From Fimbriimonadaceae bacterium (GTDB lineage: Bacteria; Armatimonadota; Fimbriimonadia; Fimbriimonadales; Fimbriimonadaceae): a stretch of DNA of 64,000 nucleotides. Location: NCBI GenBank assembly GCA_019638775.1, contig JAHBTD010000001.1:558001-622000 (forward strand), in the 5' to 3' direction. The position numbers and the translations under genes are program-made. Shown here in pieces: positions 44,501 to 52,678 of this stretch. How positions within the stretch are numbered: the first letter of the stretch is position 1; every line of letters begins with the position of its first letter. The notes below the pieces were generated by a model. It searched no databases. It saw only the letters and a list, made by a program, of their open reading frames with translations, and was not told the DNA's origin.

Positions 44501-44520
44501 CAGAGGTGAGGGTGCCCACC

Positions 44521-44697
44521 CCTTACGCCTTACGCCTCACCCCTCACGCCTCACGCCTTACGCCCCACGCCTTACGCCTCACCCCTCACCCCTCACCCCT
44601 CACCCCTCACCCCTCACCCCTCACCCCTCACCCCTCACCCCTCACGCCTCACGCCCCACGCCTTACGCCCCACGCCTCACGCCTTACCATCCTTACC
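44521..44697. repeat. Long 7-bp tandem array (CCCTCAC / ACGCCTT family)
   Basis: About 25 heptamers lie here. The centre (near 44581-44645) is a nearly perfect run of CCCTCAC, flanked by CCTTACG / CCTCACG variants. It ends within the last codons of the pyroglutamyl peptidase gene, so the array abuts that coding sequence. An open frame through it encodes only Leu-Thr-Pro repeats and is not taken as a gene. Confidence 0.93.
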
Positions 44698-45229
44698 CCT
44701 CAATAAGCCCCAAAACATCCCACAAAACCCCCAACTGCCGCTCCAAATCCATCTTCTCCACCGGCGGCACATGCAAAAAACCAACCCGCTTCCCCGGATG
44801 AACCTGCAACGACCGATACAAGAGGTAATTGCACAGATAGCCCCCCGCATCCACACTTGGCTGGCTCACCTCGGTATCCACAAAGGCTGAAGGAACGTCC
44901 CAAAGCGTTGCCCCAATCTGCGGAGGCCCAAAAGCATCGATCTTCCCCGGACCCTGCACCTCGCCGAGCACATCGTGAGTCGGCCCGATAACATTCCGTG
45001 CCGTCGTCTCAAACCGCATCCGCTCCGCTCCACCCGCAACCCCAAGGTGCAAGAGCGTATCAAAGCCTTCCGTCTCCCCCGAAGCCAAAAACTCCTCCAC
45101 GCCCTGAAAACTGACTTCAAGAATCCGAAAAGGCAACGCCGACCGCTCGGCAAGCCACTGCGATGGGTTCTCGCCAACATTAAGAAAGGGGCCAAATCCG
45201 GTGATTAGAATCGACTCCACCGGTGTCAC
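44693..45229 (-). CDS. pcp: Pyroglutamyl peptidase I (C15)
   Basis: The product is about 178 residues, a little shorter than the usual 200-215. The catalytic triad is present: Glu in RFETTARN, Cys in DAGGYLCNYLLY and His in GFLHVPP. The N terminus ILITGFGPF is typical. The GTG at 45229 overlaps the upstream gene's stop (GTGA); GTG 45220 is an alternative. It removes N-terminal pyroglutamate from peptides in the cytoplasm. Its 3' end touches the 7-bp array. Confidence 0.88.
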   Translation of the reverse strand: MTPVESILITGFGPFLNVGENPSQWLAERSALPFRILEVSFQGVEEFLASGETEGFDTLLHLGVAGGAERMRFETTARNVIGPTHDVLGEVQGPGKIDAFGPPQIGATLWDVPSAFVDTEVSQPSVDAGGYLCNYLLYRSLQVHPGKRVGFLHVPPVEKMDLERQLGVLWDVLGLIEG

Positions 45230-45626: not shown

Positions 45627-46403
45627 TCAGAAGCTGATCGAATACCCAACGACAAATCGGTAGTCCGTCCGTGGCGCACCCCGCGTCGCAAAGACATCGG
45701 CTTCAAGCCCAAAGTCGATCACCGAACGCACACCAACCTGCTTTCGCAAACCAATGCCCGCCGTGCCCGTCCAGCCTTGAGACCGCATCGCGCTCTGCTG
45801 AACAGCAAACTCCGCCACAAGGGTCTGGTCGAACCGAGTTGGATAACCGACTGGCGCAGAATATCCCAAAATTGCGCCCAGCGTGACGTCGCGTTCGCCA
45901 TCATGCGGCTGCGAAGCATAGGCCACGTCCACGTTCAAATGGACCTTGTCATACTGGTGCAGCGCCTTGGTCATGATCCCGCGAAAGCGGACCTCAACCC
46001 CTTGAGCATCGCGCCCTGTCGGAATGCCAACGTCGAGGCGGTATCCCAATGCGGGCTGATTATCTATCTCCCGCCGAACCCCGTGGAAATACGTCAGCTC
46101 AATGTCGTTCGTGTCGAACCGCTTCATTCCCGAGTCGTACGTCGGCTCAAAGGCAATCCCAATATCCTTGTTCTTCGCATGCCCATACTTGAGCTCCGAC
46201 TTGAACCCATAAAGCGGAGCATTCCGCCTCCACACGTCCATGCTAAAGCCCAGTTCAAGCGCACGCTCGCCAAAAGCGATGCTGTAAGCATCATCGAACC
46301 TTAGCGGACGGCCACCATCGATGTTGTTATGATCGATAGCCAACCCAAGCGAAGAGGCCGTTATCGTGGCTCCCACAAAGAGTAGCCTTGCCGTAGACTT
46401 CAA
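45627..46403 (-). CDS. Outer-membrane beta-barrel protein
   Basis: The 258-residue protein has a signal peptide (MKSTARLLFVGATITASSLGLA). It shows alternating amphipathic strands throughout (ALELGFSMDVWR, IELTYFHGVR, LGYRLDVGIPTG) and ends in the aromatic outer-membrane signature YSISF. It resembles small transporter-like barrels found in copper or phenol clusters, but no exact family is claimed. It starts inside the stop codon of the 521-residue gene (ATGA) and is the last gene of the putative metal operon. Confidence 0.72.
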   Translation of the reverse strand: MKSTARLLFVGATITASSLGLAIDHNNIDGGRPLRFDDAYSIAFGERALELGFSMDVWRRNAPLYGFKSELKYGHAKNKDIGIAFEPTYDSGMKRFDTNDIELTYFHGVRREIDNQPALGYRLDVGIPTGRDAQGVEVRFRGIMTKALHQYDKVHLNVDVAYASQPHDGERDVTLGAILGYSAPVGYPTRFDQTLVAEFAVQQSAMRSQGWTGTAGIGLRKQVGVRSVIDFGLEADVFATRGAPRTDYRFVVGYSISF

Positions 46404-47965
46404 CGCCCACCTCCAAGCGCCCCAATCAAGCGCATCAAAACCGGCGGCTTGTAAGGATTCGGTTTGTCAATCTTTCTGTAGGTATCTGGAGTGCCCGCAT
46501 TTTGCTGAGCCCACTCCACAAGCGAAATCGGCTTAGCGTCCTTGTATTCTTCGTGGCTTTCCACATACTTGCGGAAAGCATCTGCCGAAGTAAATGCCCG
46601 TGACCACGCCGAGCACTCCGGGTGGTCCCCAGGAGTCTCTAAGAACACAACGCCAGGAATGTTCGGCTTCCAGTTGCCCTCTTCGTCAGAGATCATCACC
46701 AGCATCCGATTGGGGTCTTCGGTCGCTGCCCGAATGATCGCCCGGCCAGGCGTCTCCGCAGCCATGTCTCTGGCACACAAAAGGCAGCGCACCGTCATTG
46801 TCCAACCATCCGCCGTAACCGTCGCGCCCCACGGGTTCGACTCGGGCAGTCGAATCGAACAGTGAGCACATTCGCCCATGTCCATCCAGCCCATACCCGA
46901 CATGTACATCAGGTCGTCCTCGCTCCCCTTCATCATCCCCATTCCGGGCATGCTTGTCGGGTGGCGATGGTCATGGAGCGTCATCGGCTCCCCGTCACCC
47001 GCCTCTTCACGCGCATGAGTCGAGGCCAGAACGCGGTAGATCGCGATCTTCACTTGCTCCTGCTTCTGTGCTTCCGTCAAATGGGTCTGAGCCAAAATGT
47101 CGTTCACATTGTCGTGCAGCATGTGCAGGTTATCGAACGAATTCGCGATCATGGGAAAGCGCTTCGCAAACCGCGGGCTCATCTCCGCCGCCATCGGCAT
47201 AAAATCCCGATCCGTTTTGTAGAGCTCGGTTCCCCGGTACCGCTCGCCAATCACTTCATACTGAGGTCCCTGGTCGGCAACCGGCACACGATAAAGCATG
47301 TCGTAATTCACCGTCTGAAGCCAGTGATATCCCCAAAACAGCCCGTTCACCTTTGGATAGTCCGTTCGGAACTTTCCGCTGTAAAAGAAGCTGTCGAGAT
47401 ACTCCATGTTCATCGGAAGGCCGGTGATCGCATAAGGCTGAGAGTTGTAGAACTGCCAAAGCCGCTCAATCTCTGCCTCCTTTTGCTCCTCCGTCCAGCC
47501 CGGATACATGAACACGTCGATAGTCTGGAAGTGCAGCAGGTGCGCCCAGTCAAACACCTTCTCAAGATAGCCATACCGACGCAAAAACGTGGGTGAAATC
47601 GCCCCTTCATCCACTGGGATCGAGGGCTGGTTCTTCAGCACACGGTCAATCGTCGAGAAAACCTTCGTCTCAAGTTGGCCCGCCTTTCCACGCACGAGCG
47701 CTTCATAGGCCATTGCATGACCAACACCCGTCGCATACATATCCTTCGCAAACAGGGGGATTCGAGTGATCGCCCAGTTATAAGGAGCAGGCTTGTAAAA
47801 GAGGTGATCCGCCCCCGGATCGTTGAGCCATTTCGGCATGTCCGAGGGCATCTTGGGAAGCTCAGCGCTCTGCGCAGCCACAGTCACATCCTGCTTATGA
47901 ACAGGCTGTGAGTCATGCTGCAAGAACGGTAGCCCCGCCAAAGCAAGCAGTGCAATCGTACTCAT
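46400..47965 (-). CDS. Secreted protein with NosL-like double-CxxC module
   Basis: The 521-residue protein has a signal peptide (MSTIALLALAGLPFLQHDS). A helical N-terminal region of about 340 residues is not recognised. Next is a His/Met-rich stretch (TLHDHRHPTSMPGMGMMKG, DLMYMSGMGWMDMG). The C-terminal module then has CAHC (about 366-369), RCLLC (about 392-396), WKPNIPGVVFLET and HPECSAWSRAFTSADAFRKYVE. That module aligns by eye with the 161-residue neighbour. Met-rich plus Cys-pair motifs suggest binding of copper or another soft metal in the periplasm. This is inference; no enzyme activity is assigned. Confidence 0.65.
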   Translation of the reverse strand: MSTIALLALAGLPFLQHDSQPVHKQDVTVAAQSAELPKMPSDMPKWLNDPGADHLFYKPAPYNWAITRIPLFAKDMYATGVGHAMAYEALVRGKAGQLETKVFSTIDRVLKNQPSIPVDEGAISPTFLRRYGYLEKVFDWAHLLHFQTIDVFMYPGWTEEQKEAEIERLWQFYNSQPYAITGLPMNMEYLDSFFYSGKFRTDYPKVNGLFWGYHWLQTVNYDMLYRVPVADQGPQYEVIGERYRGTELYKTDRDFMPMAAEMSPRFAKRFPMIANSFDNLHMLHDNVNDILAQTHLTEAQKQEQVKIAIYRVLASTHAREEAGDGEPMTLHDHRHPTSMPGMGMMKGSEDDLMYMSGMGWMDMGECAHCSIRLPESNPWGATVTADGWTMTVRCLLCARDMAAETPGRAIIRAATEDPNRMLVMISDEEGNWKPNIPGVVFLETPGDHPECSAWSRAFTSADAFRKYVESHEEYKDAKPISLVEWAQQNAGTPDTYRKIDKPNPYKPPVLMRLIGALGGGR

Positions 47966-47992
47966 CTTCGTTCTCCTTTCAGCACGAGTGCG

Positions 47993-48478
47993 TTAGCCAG
48001 CCGGCTTTGCAACAATAGCGATGAGCTCTTCGAGAGTCAAAGCCTTCGCATCTTTCACGGCGTTGACCTCAACGTACTTGTCAAACGCCTTCCTCGACGA
48101 GAATGCCCGAGAAAGCTCGGAGCAGTCGGCGTGCTTCTTGAACGTGTTCAAAAAGACCGTGCTTTCCGGTGCCGACCACTTGCCGTTGGTGCGCTTGAGA
48201 ACGACCGGCTCGCCAATCTTCTCGCTGGGCGCATAAACGACAAGGTCGCTCTTGTATCGGCCCTGGTCCTTGAAAACGCAGTACACACATCGGTACTCGA
48301 TGCGCTTGTTGCCCATCTTCAGCACGACTTCGTTATCCTGCTCCTTGGTGTTCTGAACGATTTTGAGTTTGCAGTACGGGCAGTCGGCTTCGTGAGCCGA
48401 TGCAATTGCCGAGAAGCCCAGCATGCCGACCACGGCAAGCAAAGCGAGAATTCTTCGAATTCCATTAATTGTGTTCAT
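47993..48478 (-). CDS. Small secreted double-CxxC (NosL-like) protein
   Basis: The 161-residue protein begins with a signal peptide (LALLAVVGMLGFSAIASA). The mature part has C33-x-x-C36 (CPYC), R-C64-x-x-C67 (RCVYC), then KWSAPESTVFLNT, C119 in HADCSELSRAFSS and AFDKYVEVN. NosL, a periplasmic copper chaperone for nitrous oxide reductase, has a comparable Cys-pair fold, but no nos genes are present. It starts upstream of the larger paralogue, in the same operon. The 48478 start is chosen because the signal peptide begins there. Confidence 0.68.
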   Translation of the reverse strand: MNTINGIRRILALLAVVGMLGFSAIASAHEADCPYCKLKIVQNTKEQDNEVVLKMGNKRIEYRCVYCVFKDQGRYKSDLVVYAPSEKIGEPVVLKRTNGKWSAPESTVFLNTFKKHADCSELSRAFSSRKAFDKYVEVNAVKDAKALTLEELIAIVAKPAG

Positions 48479-48532
48479 AAAATTGTTCCTCTTTGGTCGT
48501 TGGCAAGGGATCGGTCTCATCCCTTGCCCGTT

Positions 48533-49153
48533 TTAGAATCGCCGGCCAAACATCAAGGCCGGACTCTTCGCATCAATCAGATACACGCCGCCGAACCACT
48601 CTCCTTGCCCGTAGGTCAAGAATGGATGCGCCTGGTGTCCGTCAAGTTGGAGTCCAAGAGTGAATCCACTCCTATCCATCCACTTCGCGCCAAGCACCCC
48701 GTGATAGTGCGACTCGTTTGAACGGAAACCCGCGCCGACAAACATATTCGCCGTACCTGCGTCCGATTTCCAGTTCTTCTCCAACGTCGCCGAATAACCC
48801 GGGTTGCCCGTGCCGATGCCTTGCACACCAGCCGAAACACTGACGGAGGGCATCGTTGGTGTCTCTGTCAACAGCTGATAAGAGCCTAGCCAGCGAAAAG
48901 CGTTCTGCTTCCAAAGGTGAGCAACACCAAGCTGGAGTCTGGGAGCTGCCCGATACCATAGAAAGGTTTCAGCGGTTGTCACTGTCGTAGGTGCATACAC
49001 CGTGTTGATTAGCCATTTGCTGTCCGAAGCCGAACCGGCTCCGTATCCGCCAGCAACTCACAGAGGGCACCGCGCTTCCCCTGCCCCCTCTTGCGCGACG
49101 GCGGCAAGTGCAAGGCTCGACAACACTAACGTTGCAAAAATGCGTTTTTTCAT
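48533..49153 (-). pseudogene. Beta-barrel protein gene interrupted by an in-frame TGA
   Basis: One continuous frame runs from ATG 49153 to 48533 (207 codons) except for TGA at codon 32 (49058-49060). Before it lies a clear signal peptide (MKKRIFATLVLSSLALAAVA) with GAGGTGA six bases upstream, its ATG overlapping the preceding gene's stop (ATGA). After it, the same frame continues as GGYGAGSASDSKW and amphipathic strands ending in LMFGRRF, an outer-membrane barrel terminus. No ribosome site precedes the internal GTG at 49000. A nonsense mutation, a sequence error or readthrough are the options. I call it an interrupted gene. Confidence 0.75.
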
Positions 49154-50376
49154 GACTTCACCTCGACGACGAATCCAAGCGTCTTAATGCCTCCACGCCA
49201 GTCAAATTGGGCATAGGCTTTGTAAAGGCCAGGCTTTGGAAAGCGTCCATTGAATCGAACGATGCCCTTCTTCACAAGCGCCTCGTTATCGTGGTCCTCA
49301 GCCGGATGGCTGTGTACAACCGTTTTGCCGTCCTGATGGAAAATCATCAGGTGTCCCGCCGCACCGAGCCACGGCACGGTGTCGCCAGCAGCTTGCCCGG
49401 TCTTCGCATCGAACAGCTTGACTTGAAGAGTCGTCATGCGCCCGACCGGAATCTTGCCGTCAACTGAAGCAAAAAGCCCCTTGAGGCCTCCATCTGTCGC
49501 TGAAGTCGATGGAATCAGCTTGGTATTCCAAGTCGGTGGCGGACCTGACAACTTTACGCCCGTCATCAAGATATTCGAGCCCTTGCCAAAAGGAGCCACG
49601 TCGCCATAGACGCCGTACTCTCCACCCGCCGGGAACGTGATCGAAATCGTCCAAGTGCCGTCCGGCTGCATCACCGGGTGCTCGTGGATGAACCAATTCA
49701 AGTCCTTGCTGGCAATCAGCAAGTGAAACTCCTGCTCGTGCGCTATATCAAACTTTGTCTGAATCTTGCCTGTTTTGGTGTCCATCACCCGCAGTTGAAG
49801 ATCGATCGGCTTCCCCGCAACCGCTTCCTTCGGCCAATTGACGACATCAAGCCGATAAGGCAGCTCTTTTGCCATCTTCGAGGGCCGTTCGTCTCCAACG
49901 CTAACTGTGAAGGATGCCTTCTTAACGCCATCGCCAGGGATGTTCAGGCTCAAATCAATCTGATAATCACCGCCATGCGGGAAGTACAGAACGATTCCGT
50001 AATCGCCCGGAACTCCTTCCCGATGAATCTGAGGCTTAGCCGAAGGCATACCTGGCATGCTCGGCATCGTCACAACTCCCGTCGCTTCAATGCCCCCCAC
50101 ACCCTTGAAACCTACTTCAACCGGGTCTTTCTTGGTCGTGTCGGTTACGCGAAACTCGACGTCGACCTCTTCCTGCGCAAAAAGACCACCTTCGGGCACA
50201 CGAAGCTCAATCTCATACTTGCCGACGCGAACCTTGGTTGGGTGCGCCTTTTGTGCCTTAGCCGGGGCATGATGCTCATGCTGGCTCCCAATGAAGGCAT
50301 GAATATCCCCGCTTGTTTGAGGCGCTCCAAGCCCCGCTCCTGCCGCAACAACCGTTGCGATTAATGTGTGAATCAT
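49150..50376 (-). CDS. Secreted Met/His-rich multi-domain protein, probable metal handling
   Basis: The 408-residue protein has a signal peptide (MIHTLIATVVAAGAGLGA); AGGAG six bases before ATG 50376 fixes the start. A His-rich N terminus (HAFIGSQHEHHAPAKAQKAH) leads into three Ig-like/FixH-like beta domains. Domain one carries TMPSMPGMPSAKP. Domain two has FHLLIASKDLNWFIHEHPVMQPDGTW. Domain three has GHLMIFHQDGKTVVHSHPAEDHD. Such H-x-H-P and Met-rich motifs are seen in proteins encoded near copper efflux genes. It lies in one transcription unit with the barrel and Cys-rich genes. Confidence 0.7.
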   Translation of the reverse strand: MIHTLIATVVAAGAGLGAPQTSGDIHAFIGSQHEHHAPAKAQKAHPTKVRVGKYEIELRVPEGGLFAQEEVDVEFRVTDTTKKDPVEVGFKGVGGIEATGVVTMPSMPGMPSAKPQIHREGVPGDYGIVLYFPHGGDYQIDLSLNIPGDGVKKASFTVSVGDERPSKMAKELPYRLDVVNWPKEAVAGKPIDLQLRVMDTKTGKIQTKFDIAHEQEFHLLIASKDLNWFIHEHPVMQPDGTWTISITFPAGGEYGVYGDVAPFGKGSNILMTGVKLSGPPPTWNTKLIPSTSATDGGLKGLFASVDGKIPVGRMTTLQVKLFDAKTGQAAGDTVPWLGAAGHLMIFHQDGKTVVHSHPAEDHDNEALVKKGIVRFNGRFPKPGLYKAYAQFDWRGGIKTLGFVVEVKS

Positions 50377-50449
50377 GTTTTCTCCTGTCGTAATAATCCG
50401 TGAACAACGAAGTCCAACAGGCATCAATAAGCCCGCTGGGGACGTGTGT

Positions 50450-50938
50450 TCAGGCGACAGGAGGAGCGCGGGACGCGCCAAAAAGATAAGGCCGGTCAAC
50501 GGGTGGACCCGAATCGTTACCGAAGATGCCCGGTTCCGCGATCAGGCTGCGAACCAGAGGTATCTCGGTCCAAACCGGAAGGATTGCCGATGCATCAAAC
50601 GAAGTGCGAAGGGCCTTATCAGCATCGGGAATCTGAACCGCTACCGTCTGACAACTCGCCATCTGACCGCAGTTGCACTGGCCTTGGTTCACCGAAGCCA
50701 TCTGCGAGGCTTCATCATCAGAATTGTCCGTCAGCTTTGCTGCGCCCTTGCTCGGGCAGCAGCTATGTTGCGTGGAAACTGCAACCTCGGCGGAATCGGC
50801 CTCAATCTTAGGAAGCGGAGTCGCAACGGAGGTCGCCCCCATCGCGCAACCCTGGGCACACAAAGCCGCCGGCACAGCCTGCACAAAGAGTGCAAGCCCC
50901 AGCAACAACGTAAGCCATGGTTTTGCGAATCGGGTCAT
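50450..50938 (-). CDS. Small secreted Cys-rich protein
   Basis: The 162-residue protein has a signal peptide (PWLTLLLGLALFVQAVPA). Cysteines cluster at C27, C31, C60-C61 (HSCCPS), C88, C90 and C96 (CNCGQMASC), suggesting metal binding or several disulfides. No family was recognised. It is the first gene of the putative metal operon and ends 73 bases before the next start. The upstream region contains the palindrome GTTAAC but no clear promoter. Confidence 0.6.
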   Translation of the reverse strand: MTRFAKPWLTLLLGLALFVQAVPAALCAQGCAMGATSVATPLPKIEADSAEVAVSTQHSCCPSKGAAKLTDNSDDEASQMASVNQGQCNCGQMASCQTVAVQIPDADKALRTSFDASAILPVWTEIPLVRSLIAEPGIFGNDSGPPVDRPYLFGASRAPPVA

Positions 50939-51076: not shown

Positions 51077-51162
51077 TGGTGCCCGGGGCGGGACTCGAAC
51101 CCGCACGCTCTTGCGAGCAACGGATTTTAAGTCCGCTGCGTCTACCATTCCGCCACCCGGGC
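51077..51162 (-). tRNA. tRNA-Leu (anticodon TAA)
   Basis: The 86-nt class II tRNA folds with acceptor GCCCGGG/CCCGGGC, discriminator A, an encoded 3' CCA, D-arm TGGCGGAATGGTAGACGCA, anticodon loop CTTAAAA with TAA at 51127-51129, a long variable arm (TTGCTCGCAAGAGCG) and the T-arm GCGGGTTCGAGTCCCGC. It is transcribed leftward, toward the metal gene cluster. Confidence 0.97.
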
Positions 51163-51279: not shown

Positions 51280-51672
51280 TTATTGTTTCAGCATCGCCAA
51301 AACTCTCGCCCGAATCTCATCCCGGATCTCCCGAACCCGCTCAATCGGCGCTCCATGCGGGTCGTCAAGCTCCCAATCCTCAGTCAGCAAAAACTTAGCC
51401 GGACATGCTTCTGCATCCACTCCACAACCCATCGAAATGATTTGATCCGCCCGATCAGCCATCTCTTGCGTTAGGAGTTTCGGCTGGCCCGTCATCGGAA
51501 CCCCAACCTCCGCCATCGCCCGAATCGCCAAAGCATTGAGTGACTTGCCCCCGAGAGTGCCCGCCGATTCCGCCACAACATCCAACCCCAACTGCCGGGC
51601 AAAAAAGTTCACAAACGCCTCTGCCATCTGCGAACGGCCTGCATTGTGAACGCACACAAAAAGAACTCTCAT
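51280..51672 (-). CDS. arsC: Arsenate reductase / low-molecular-weight phosphatase (ArsC, thioredoxin-linked type)
   Basis: The 130-residue protein has the P-loop VCVHNAGRSQMAEAF and the redox cysteines in SMGCGVDAEACP, matching the C10/C82/C89 triad of Staphylococcus-type ArsC; the last Cys pair distinguishes it from plain tyrosine phosphatases. The ATG at 51672 gives the standard N terminus MRVLFVC; in-frame sequence upstream is non-homologous. It would reduce arsenate using thioredoxin. No arsR or arsenite pump is adjacent. Confidence 0.87.
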   Translation of the reverse strand: MRVLFVCVHNAGRSQMAEAFVNFFARQLGLDVVAESAGTLGGKSLNALAIRAMAEVGVPMTGQPKLLTQEMADRADQIISMGCGVDAEACPAKFLLTEDWELDDPHGAPIERVREIRDEIRARVLAMLKQ

Positions 51673-51715
51673 CGCCTTAATAGCATGAAGTGTAGAACAT
51701 GAAGGTTGGGTTAAG

Positions 51716-52678
51716 TTATCGCAAACTTTGAAGGTCCAAAGCCGACGGCGTCGCCACACCAACATGCCGCACAACGCATGCCGAAGTCTGCGCCGCAAGC
51801 TCAAAGACCGACGCCTCAAAACCAACCGCAGCGAACCCAAGAGCAACCGTTGCTATCACTGTGTCACCCGCGCCCGCCGTGTCGTAAACCTCAACCCGAG
51901 GCGCAGAAACGCGGATCGTGCTTGAGCCAACCGCCGTCATACCCGCCTCACCCAAAGTCACCAAGATCGCGCCAACGCCATAACGGTCACGCAGGTCTCG
52001 ACCGACGGCCTCAGCAGCCTCCACATCAATCGCCCGATGCTCACCGCTCGCTTCCGTAGCTTCGGCTCTGTTCAAGCTCAAAAGATTCGCTCCGCGAAAA
52101 GAGGCCGCTGATCGAGGCTTCGGATTGGCAACCACCGCCACACCCCGTTTCACAGCTTCATCAATGCAAAATCGAACTACAGGCTCGGCAAGCGTCCCCT
52201 TCAGATAATCACTCAGAACGATCACGTCAACACCATCCAAACGCTCAGCAAAAGCCGAACGCAGCCGATCTTGCACCTCAGCCGAAGCAATCACATCGTT
52301 CTCCGCATCAATCCTCAAAACCTGATGCGAATGGTCGGCGACCACCCTCGTCTTTCGCGTCGTGCTCCGCGCCGAATCCCGAACCAAAGTGTGATCGCCA
52401 AGTCCGCTTAGCTGCAACGATTGCTCAAGCATCGTCGCCGCCTCATCATCCCCAACCAGCCCAATCGTCGTCACCTGCGCACCCAACGCCGCAAGGTTCC
52501 GCGCCACATTCGCGGCCCCACCCGGCAGCCTCTTTGTAGACTCCTGCCGAATCACCATCACTGGCGCTTCGGGGCTGATCCGCGTCGCCTTCCCAAAGAT
52601 GTATTCGTCGAGCATTAAGTCGCCAACAACCATCGCCCGCATACCCTGAAACCGGTCCAGCAAAGCAGCAAAGCTCAT
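51716..52678 (-). CDS. rfaE1: Heptose-7-phosphate kinase (PfkB family, RfaE1/HldE-N type)
   Basis: The 320-residue ribokinase-fold sugar kinase has RfaE-typical VVGDLMLDEYIFGKATRISPEAPV at the N terminus, PGGAANVARNLAALG, and the catalytic DTAGAGDTV anion hole near the C terminus. It should phosphorylate D-glycero-beta-D-manno-heptose 7-phosphate on the path to ADP-heptose for lipopolysaccharide. The nucleotidyltransferase domain of bifunctional HldE is absent. Its ATG overlaps the lgt stop (ATGA). Confidence 0.88.
   Translation of the reverse strand: MSFAALLDRFQGMRAMVVGDLMLDEYIFGKATRISPEAPVMVIRQESTKRLPGGAANVARNLAALGAQVTTIGLVGDDEAATMLEQSLQLSGLGDHTLVRDSARSTTRKTRVVADHSHQVLRIDAENDVIASAEVQDRLRSAFAERLDGVDVIVLSDYLKGTLAEPVVRFCIDEAVKRGVAVVANPKPRSAASFRGANLLSLNRAEATEASGEHRAIDVEAAEAVGRDLRDRYGVGAILVTLGEAGMTAVGSSTIRVSAPRVEVYDTAGAGDTVIATVALGFAAVGFEASVFELAAQTSACVVRHVGVATPSALDLQSLR

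Follow-up and report, generated by a model that had tools for sequence, protein, structure and literature searches.

Among the described proteins closest to those of the locus analysed here are NosL (PF05573), the copper chaperone of nitrous oxide reductase, a Cu(I) chaperone that is required under copper scarcity (PMC7558416), and the organomercurial lyase MerB (PF03243). The CusCFBA and Cop/Pco systems handle copper in the envelope by means of periplasmic Met/His proteins and an outer-membrane component, and known selenoproteins include an MtrB/PioB barrel, an FCYXU TonB receptor and a UxxU metal-binding protein (PMC13188914). We describe a locus with likenesses to each of these, found in a window of 64,000 nucleotides (the whole stretch of DNA that was analysed) from a Fimbriimonadaceae genome of 4.3 Mb. 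It is a leftward operon of six genes, built mostly from undescribed protein families, and its likely role, judged from the sequences, is the capture and relay of periplasmic copper, with the products of the last two genes, P5 and P6, as the core.

All six genes lie on the reverse strand. P1 (50450..50938) encodes a small Cys-rich exported protein whose family has cysteines of the CxMxCC...CxC type and a DSGPP...RAPP tail, and P2 (49150..50376) an exported Met/His protein with a YtkA-like N-terminal part. They are followed by P3 (48533..49153), a beta-rich exported protein with a CxxU motif, by the exported proteins P4 (47993..48478) and P5 (46400..47965), with one and two domains respectively, and by P6 (45627..46403), which is an outer-membrane beta-barrel. 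The open reading frames of all six consecutive genes for exported products proposed in an earlier note on this DNA were found, with an export-type hydrophobic start that is clear by eye in P1 to P4 and P6 and weaker in P5. Four-base overlaps, which the note had placed at several junctions, are present at P2/P3 (ATGA) and P5/P6 (TTGA) but at only these two of the five. A terminator-like hairpin 3' of P6 (45584..45607, reverse strand) is a consensus match only, and hairpins of this kind are about as frequent in the region as in shuffled sequences.

The relatives compared are Fimbriimonadaceae MAGs, as are MAGs most of the genomes compared in total. P5 is present in 45 of the 291 genomes of the phylum Armatimonadota, and inspection of 20 kb neighbourhoods showed the order P2-P4-P5-P6 almost throughout the family, in about 25 loci, frequently together with P1, a P1-type Cys-rich protein preceding the operon in many loci of the family. 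Because dozens of genomes share the gene order and the metal-ligand residues, the operon is more than a chance arrangement. Co-occurrence in other genomes holds for these genes; P3 is absent from most relatives' operons. The place that P3 has in the window, between P2 and P4, is taken in several relatives by a membrane protein of the DUF2231 family with a CxxCH-like motif (L039:14361-15173 and L032:7382-8302).

Database searches placed P2 in a known family and left P1 unassigned. P1 has no Pfam or NCBIfam family match and was unmatched by a CopL/DUF2946-like profile, its likeness to such proteins consisting in the Cys content and the RAPP tail only. P2 matches the YtkA-like family PF13115 with 28.9 bits (cut-off 25.9), and copA/csoR clusters on plasmids of Staphylococcus and Rhodococcus also carry its C-terminal half. 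A P2-type protein belongs to a CsoR-CopA-CopZ cluster in the Staphylococcus plasmid, and others adjoin a P-type ATPase and a CsoR-type regulator in the Rhodococcus plasmid and a P-type ATPase and DUF305 in Hymenobacter. This presence in copper clusters of other phyla supports the copper link independently.

The neighbourhood of the operon in its relatives points in the same direction. Of 34 relatives, 17 have a copper-type P1B ATPase (TIGR01511 over cut-off) no more than 10 kb from P5, with CsoR and CusA/CzcA as frequent companions, and the other 17 have none at that distance; positions were compared by hand, and in one genome (G080) the distance was taken from the NosL-like part of P5. With about 1.4 such genes per genome of about 3 Mb, the chance expectation for this linkage is about 1%, the linkage events not being independent because the genomes are related. 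The neighbours comprise, besides the copper-type ATPase, a second ATPase that is ZntA-like, a CsoR/RicR-type repressor (PF02583), CusA/CzcA and CopM/DUF305. Copper ATPase, RND pump, multicopper oxidase and nosL are all absent from the window itself, as had been observed earlier and as profile searches of the genome confirm. Two copper-type ATPases over cut-off are found on contigs C2 and C14, both outside the window, with one CsoR close to the ATPase on C2, and a CusA/CzcA pump (TIGR00914) lies at C1:82227, again outside the window.

We consider the handling of copper (soft metal) in the envelope to be the probable role of the operon, in which P1 to P4 would capture the metal and relay it via P5 with P6. 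The earlier proposal of an envelope soft-metal, copper-like system is supported in that the homologues are not scattered, their order is kept and copper-export genes adjoin them in relatives. Against it speak the half of the relatives that have no copper ATPase beside the operon and, in the window genome itself, the position of CopA, CsoR and CusA away from it. The locus shares with CusCFBA and Cop/Pco the handling of copper in the envelope, periplasmic Met/His proteins and an outer-membrane component, and CusA and CopA are neighbours in relatives. Unlike Cop/Pco, it lies in a genome without the multicopper oxidase PcoA/CopA (no match to PF07732, Cu-oxidase_3); moreover, the N-terminal domain of P5 and the whole of P3 have no counterpart in CusCFBA or Cop/Pco, and the barrel type of P6 differs from that of CusC.

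The AlphaFold model of P5 (pLDDT 87.5) consists of two domains, joined by a linker rich in HDH and Met motifs (46877..46972, reverse strand; HDHRHP...MPGMGMM...MSGMGWMDM), which is conserved in the alignment as HDH...GMG...MGWM. In this model the C-terminal domain (46466..46876, reverse strand) has the MerB/NosL fold: its best fold match is MerB (Z 12.1, 126 residues, 3.2 A), and NosL of the NosDFYL complex is matched with Z 7.6 over 118 residues at 3.6 A, in agreement with the earlier guess of a NosL-like protein. P4 is a single-domain relative of this domain and belongs with it to the MerB/NosL superfamily. The double CxxC noted before is present in both proteins, to which a fifth conserved Cys has to be added. 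What P4 and the P5 C-terminal domain have in common with NosL is the fold, export and Cys/Met ligands for Cu(I), while the two CxxC pairs with the fifth Cys, and in P5 the fusion to a His-rich helical domain, set them apart. Membership of the NosL family by profile was rejected, neither P4 nor P5 matching PF05573, and the genome has neither a PF05573 match nor nos genes. Matches to the MerB profile are weak and below the cut-off (E 0.075 for P4; 21-25 bits for relatives of P4 and P5, cut-off 27). P4 and P5 also differ from MerB in being exported, and the spacing of their motifs suggests that they would have CxxC in place of the CxxD (Cys96, Asp99) of its catalytic Cys-Asp-Cys.

A profile search of solved structures with P5 and P4 gave chance matches only, including repetitive designed TIM barrels, a tblastn search with P4 found no match in plasmids, and a literature search on NosL-like copper proteins found nothing relevant. 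Counts of two TGA codons in P4-type matches arose from runs beyond the gene end and do not represent selenocysteine. In other armatimonads a thioredoxin-like part is fused to a MerB/NosL-like CxxC...CxxC domain that is over the MerB cut-off (L156, L157, L159), and in one relative a NosL-like domain and a porin-type outer-membrane barrel are fused in one protein (L068:7480-9198).

The NosL fold of the P5 C-terminal domain, together with the role of NosL when copper is scarce (PMC7558416), raises the alternative that the locus serves copper supply and not defence, P4 and P5 acting like NosL to provide a cuproenzyme, for instance an oxidase, with the scarce metal and P6 being an uptake pore; a nuo cluster, seen by eye nearby in the window, would suit this alternative. 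We regard it as unlikely, since it is genes for export and resistance (CopA, CsoR, CusA/CzcA, CopM) that surround the operon in relatives, the genome has no nosL family member and the homologues of P3 follow metallothionein-like genes. A further alternative is that the operon protects against an organometal or a soft metal other than copper (Hg, Ag, Cd, organomercury), the MerB-fold domains being a lyase or a binder. This accords with MerB as the best fold match, with MerR-class regulators in cyanobacteria and with the ZntA-like ATPases among the linked ones, which make another soft metal possible. Selenocysteine binds mercury strongly, and this also speaks for such a role. We nevertheless hold it to be improbable, because the relatives of P4 and P5 stay below the MerB cut-off, because the spacing of the motifs suggests CxxC in place of the catalytic CxxD, and because the CopA- and CsoR-type neighbours are of copper types.

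The N-terminal helical domain of P5 (46973..47860, reverse strand), taken as the first 331 residues of P5 and called P5N, is a separate family that the earlier note did not single out, without a Pfam or NCBIfam family. The genome collection yielded 148 stretches with P5N, of which 80 were kept, and its hosts include Armatimonadota, cyanobacteria (Microcystis, Chroococcus, Chlorogloeopsis), Nitrospira and others, as well as plasmids of Gemmatirosa and Methylobacterium. By tblastn, 114 of 119 loci have P6 together with P5N, and inspection by eye adds at least one more (L073); P6 directly follows P5N in nearly all of them and precedes it in Gemmatirosa. Six His residues (83, 142, 145, 214, 281 and 284) are among the 24 near-invariant positions of P5N (hypergeometric 2.6e-5), and in the model (pLDDT 93.6) they sit on four helices. 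Compared with the PDB, this model had no match with Z of 5 or more, the matches being weak and to unrelated helical proteins such as GPCRs (best Z 4.8), a result that falls short of proving a new fold. For P6, 13 of 28 homologues match PF13557 (Phenol_MetA_deg; best E 3.8e-8) and the P6 of the window does not; the homologues appear to be outer-membrane barrels of the Phenol_MetA_deg type. The cyanobacterial P5N-P6 pairs often have CopA at a distance of no more than 10 kb, and the two cyanobacterial loci examined show a MerR/CueR-class regulator upstream of the pair. The Nitrospira pairs are without clear copper neighbours, which suggests that the core function of P5N-P6 may be wider than copper defence.

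P3 had been taken for an interrupted barrel, a reading that is overturned by the conservation of its single in-frame TGA (49058..49060, reverse strand; context AQEGAGEARCPL*VAGGYG), which is interpreted as coding for selenocysteine in the second position of CPLU. Homologues were detected by a read-through search in 34 of 85 genomes of the family. Where these genes have the CPL(stop) motif, the stop is TGA in 22 of 22 and TAA or TAG in none, and it occupies the place of the second Cys of CPxC, where other homologues have Cys (ARCPLC in G119 and G120, and in a further eight genes FCPIC or FCPVC). A few homologues have TGA at both motif positions (GGUPLU, SGUPIU), and VPTUTGUPGEG is seen in weaker ones. 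Every genome with the UGA form has SelB over cut-off, except for two incomplete ones that have a strong tRNA-Sec match instead, while the eight Cys-only genomes have neither; the probability of this split is about 2e-7 if genomes are treated as independent and kinship is ignored. The window genome has SelA, SelB, SelD and tRNA-Sec. In addition, a SECIS-type hairpin with a 7-pair stem and a (G/A)GUUC loop (49025..49043, reverse strand) begins about 14 nt 3' of the UGA. Six of its seven pairs change on both sides, 90.3% of cells are paired, and double-change cells number 29 against 7.6 in shuffles, none of 500 shuffles being as high; slid structures lose the covariation signal.

By this comparative evidence P3 is a predicted selenoprotein. 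No Pfam or NCBIfam model matches it, a list of 119 selenoprotein families (PMC13188914) does not contain it, and a literature search on selenoproteins in Armatimonadetes found nothing relevant. With the MtrB/PioB barrel, the FCYXU TonB receptor and the UxxU protein P3 shares a UGA at a Cys position and a CxxU/UxxU-type motif, but it forms a separate family, and judged by sequence against Pfam, NCBIfam and that list it is a new selenoprotein family, unlisted before. A decayed pseudogene or an assembly error, to which the in-frame stop near the start and the position of P3 outside most relatives' operons might point, was rejected as highly improbable, because the same TGA is conserved in 22 homologous genes, Cys replaces it in genomes without the Sec machinery, a covarying hairpin follows it and the window genome has the Sec genes.

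The SelD gene of the window genome (G000:C3:202514-203419, L223) itself has one in-frame TGA and probably encodes a selenoprotein. A weak tRNA-Sec match (G000:C1:609081-609162) proved to be the ordinary tRNA at window positions 51080-51162.

A metallothionein-like, very Cys-rich gene is directly upstream of the P3 homologue, on the same strand, in 9 of 20 P3 loci (11-20 kb examined). All 20 loci together contain, as other such Cys-rich open reading frames, one beside one of these nine and one elsewhere, and YHS-domain genes adjoin the P3 homologue in two further loci. The metallothionein-like neighbours thus place P3 in soft-metal company independently of the window. These genes encode 38-164 aa with 12-33 Cys (L168, L169, L171, L173, L174, L176-L178), and some are preceded by P1-like Cys-rich genes with RAPP or RGPP tails. 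Relatives of P3 with two in-frame TGA codons (UPLU, UPIU, VPTUTGUPGEG), candidate double-selenocysteine proteins, were seen in L200, L201 and L204 (G102), in L218 (G077) and in L205, L208, L219 and L221, those of the VPTUTGUPGEG type lying between the operon and a copper ATPase in G077, G135 and G145.

In the mechanism that we propose, copper would reach the periplasm through CopA or from outside, and four proteins would capture it there, namely P1 with its many cysteines, P2 with its Met and His residues, the selenoprotein P3 with its CxxU motif and P4, which is NosL-like. The metal would then be handed to P5, where the NosL-like domain and the Met linker may feed the His cluster of the helical domain, and P5 with the barrel P6 would either keep the copper in store or discharge it from the periplasm. 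The CxxU pair of P3 would most likely serve thiol/selenol redox or very tight binding of Cu(I). More tentatively, and with less confidence than doubt, P5N-P6 could be a new two-protein route that moves or stores copper at the outer membrane in several phyla, with a six-His metal site in a helical fold that the PDB does not yet contain, to which the armatimonad form would add NosL-like domains and the new CxxU selenoprotein as a selenium-using arm of copper defence. The analysis adds a previously unlisted selenoprotein family whose member P3 an annotation pipeline would shorten or call a pseudogene, and a widespread unnamed pair, P5N-P6, tied to copper handling. It opens the questions whether selenium aids copper defence and whether P5N holds a multinuclear metal site beside an outer-membrane barrel.

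Two features flank the operon in the window. A low-molecular-weight phosphatase/arsenate-reductase-like gene (51280-51846, same strand, identified by eye) lies just upstream of the tRNA and the operon, and an array of short GGGGTGA-type repeats (44510-44700) follows a pyroglutamyl-peptidase-like gene.
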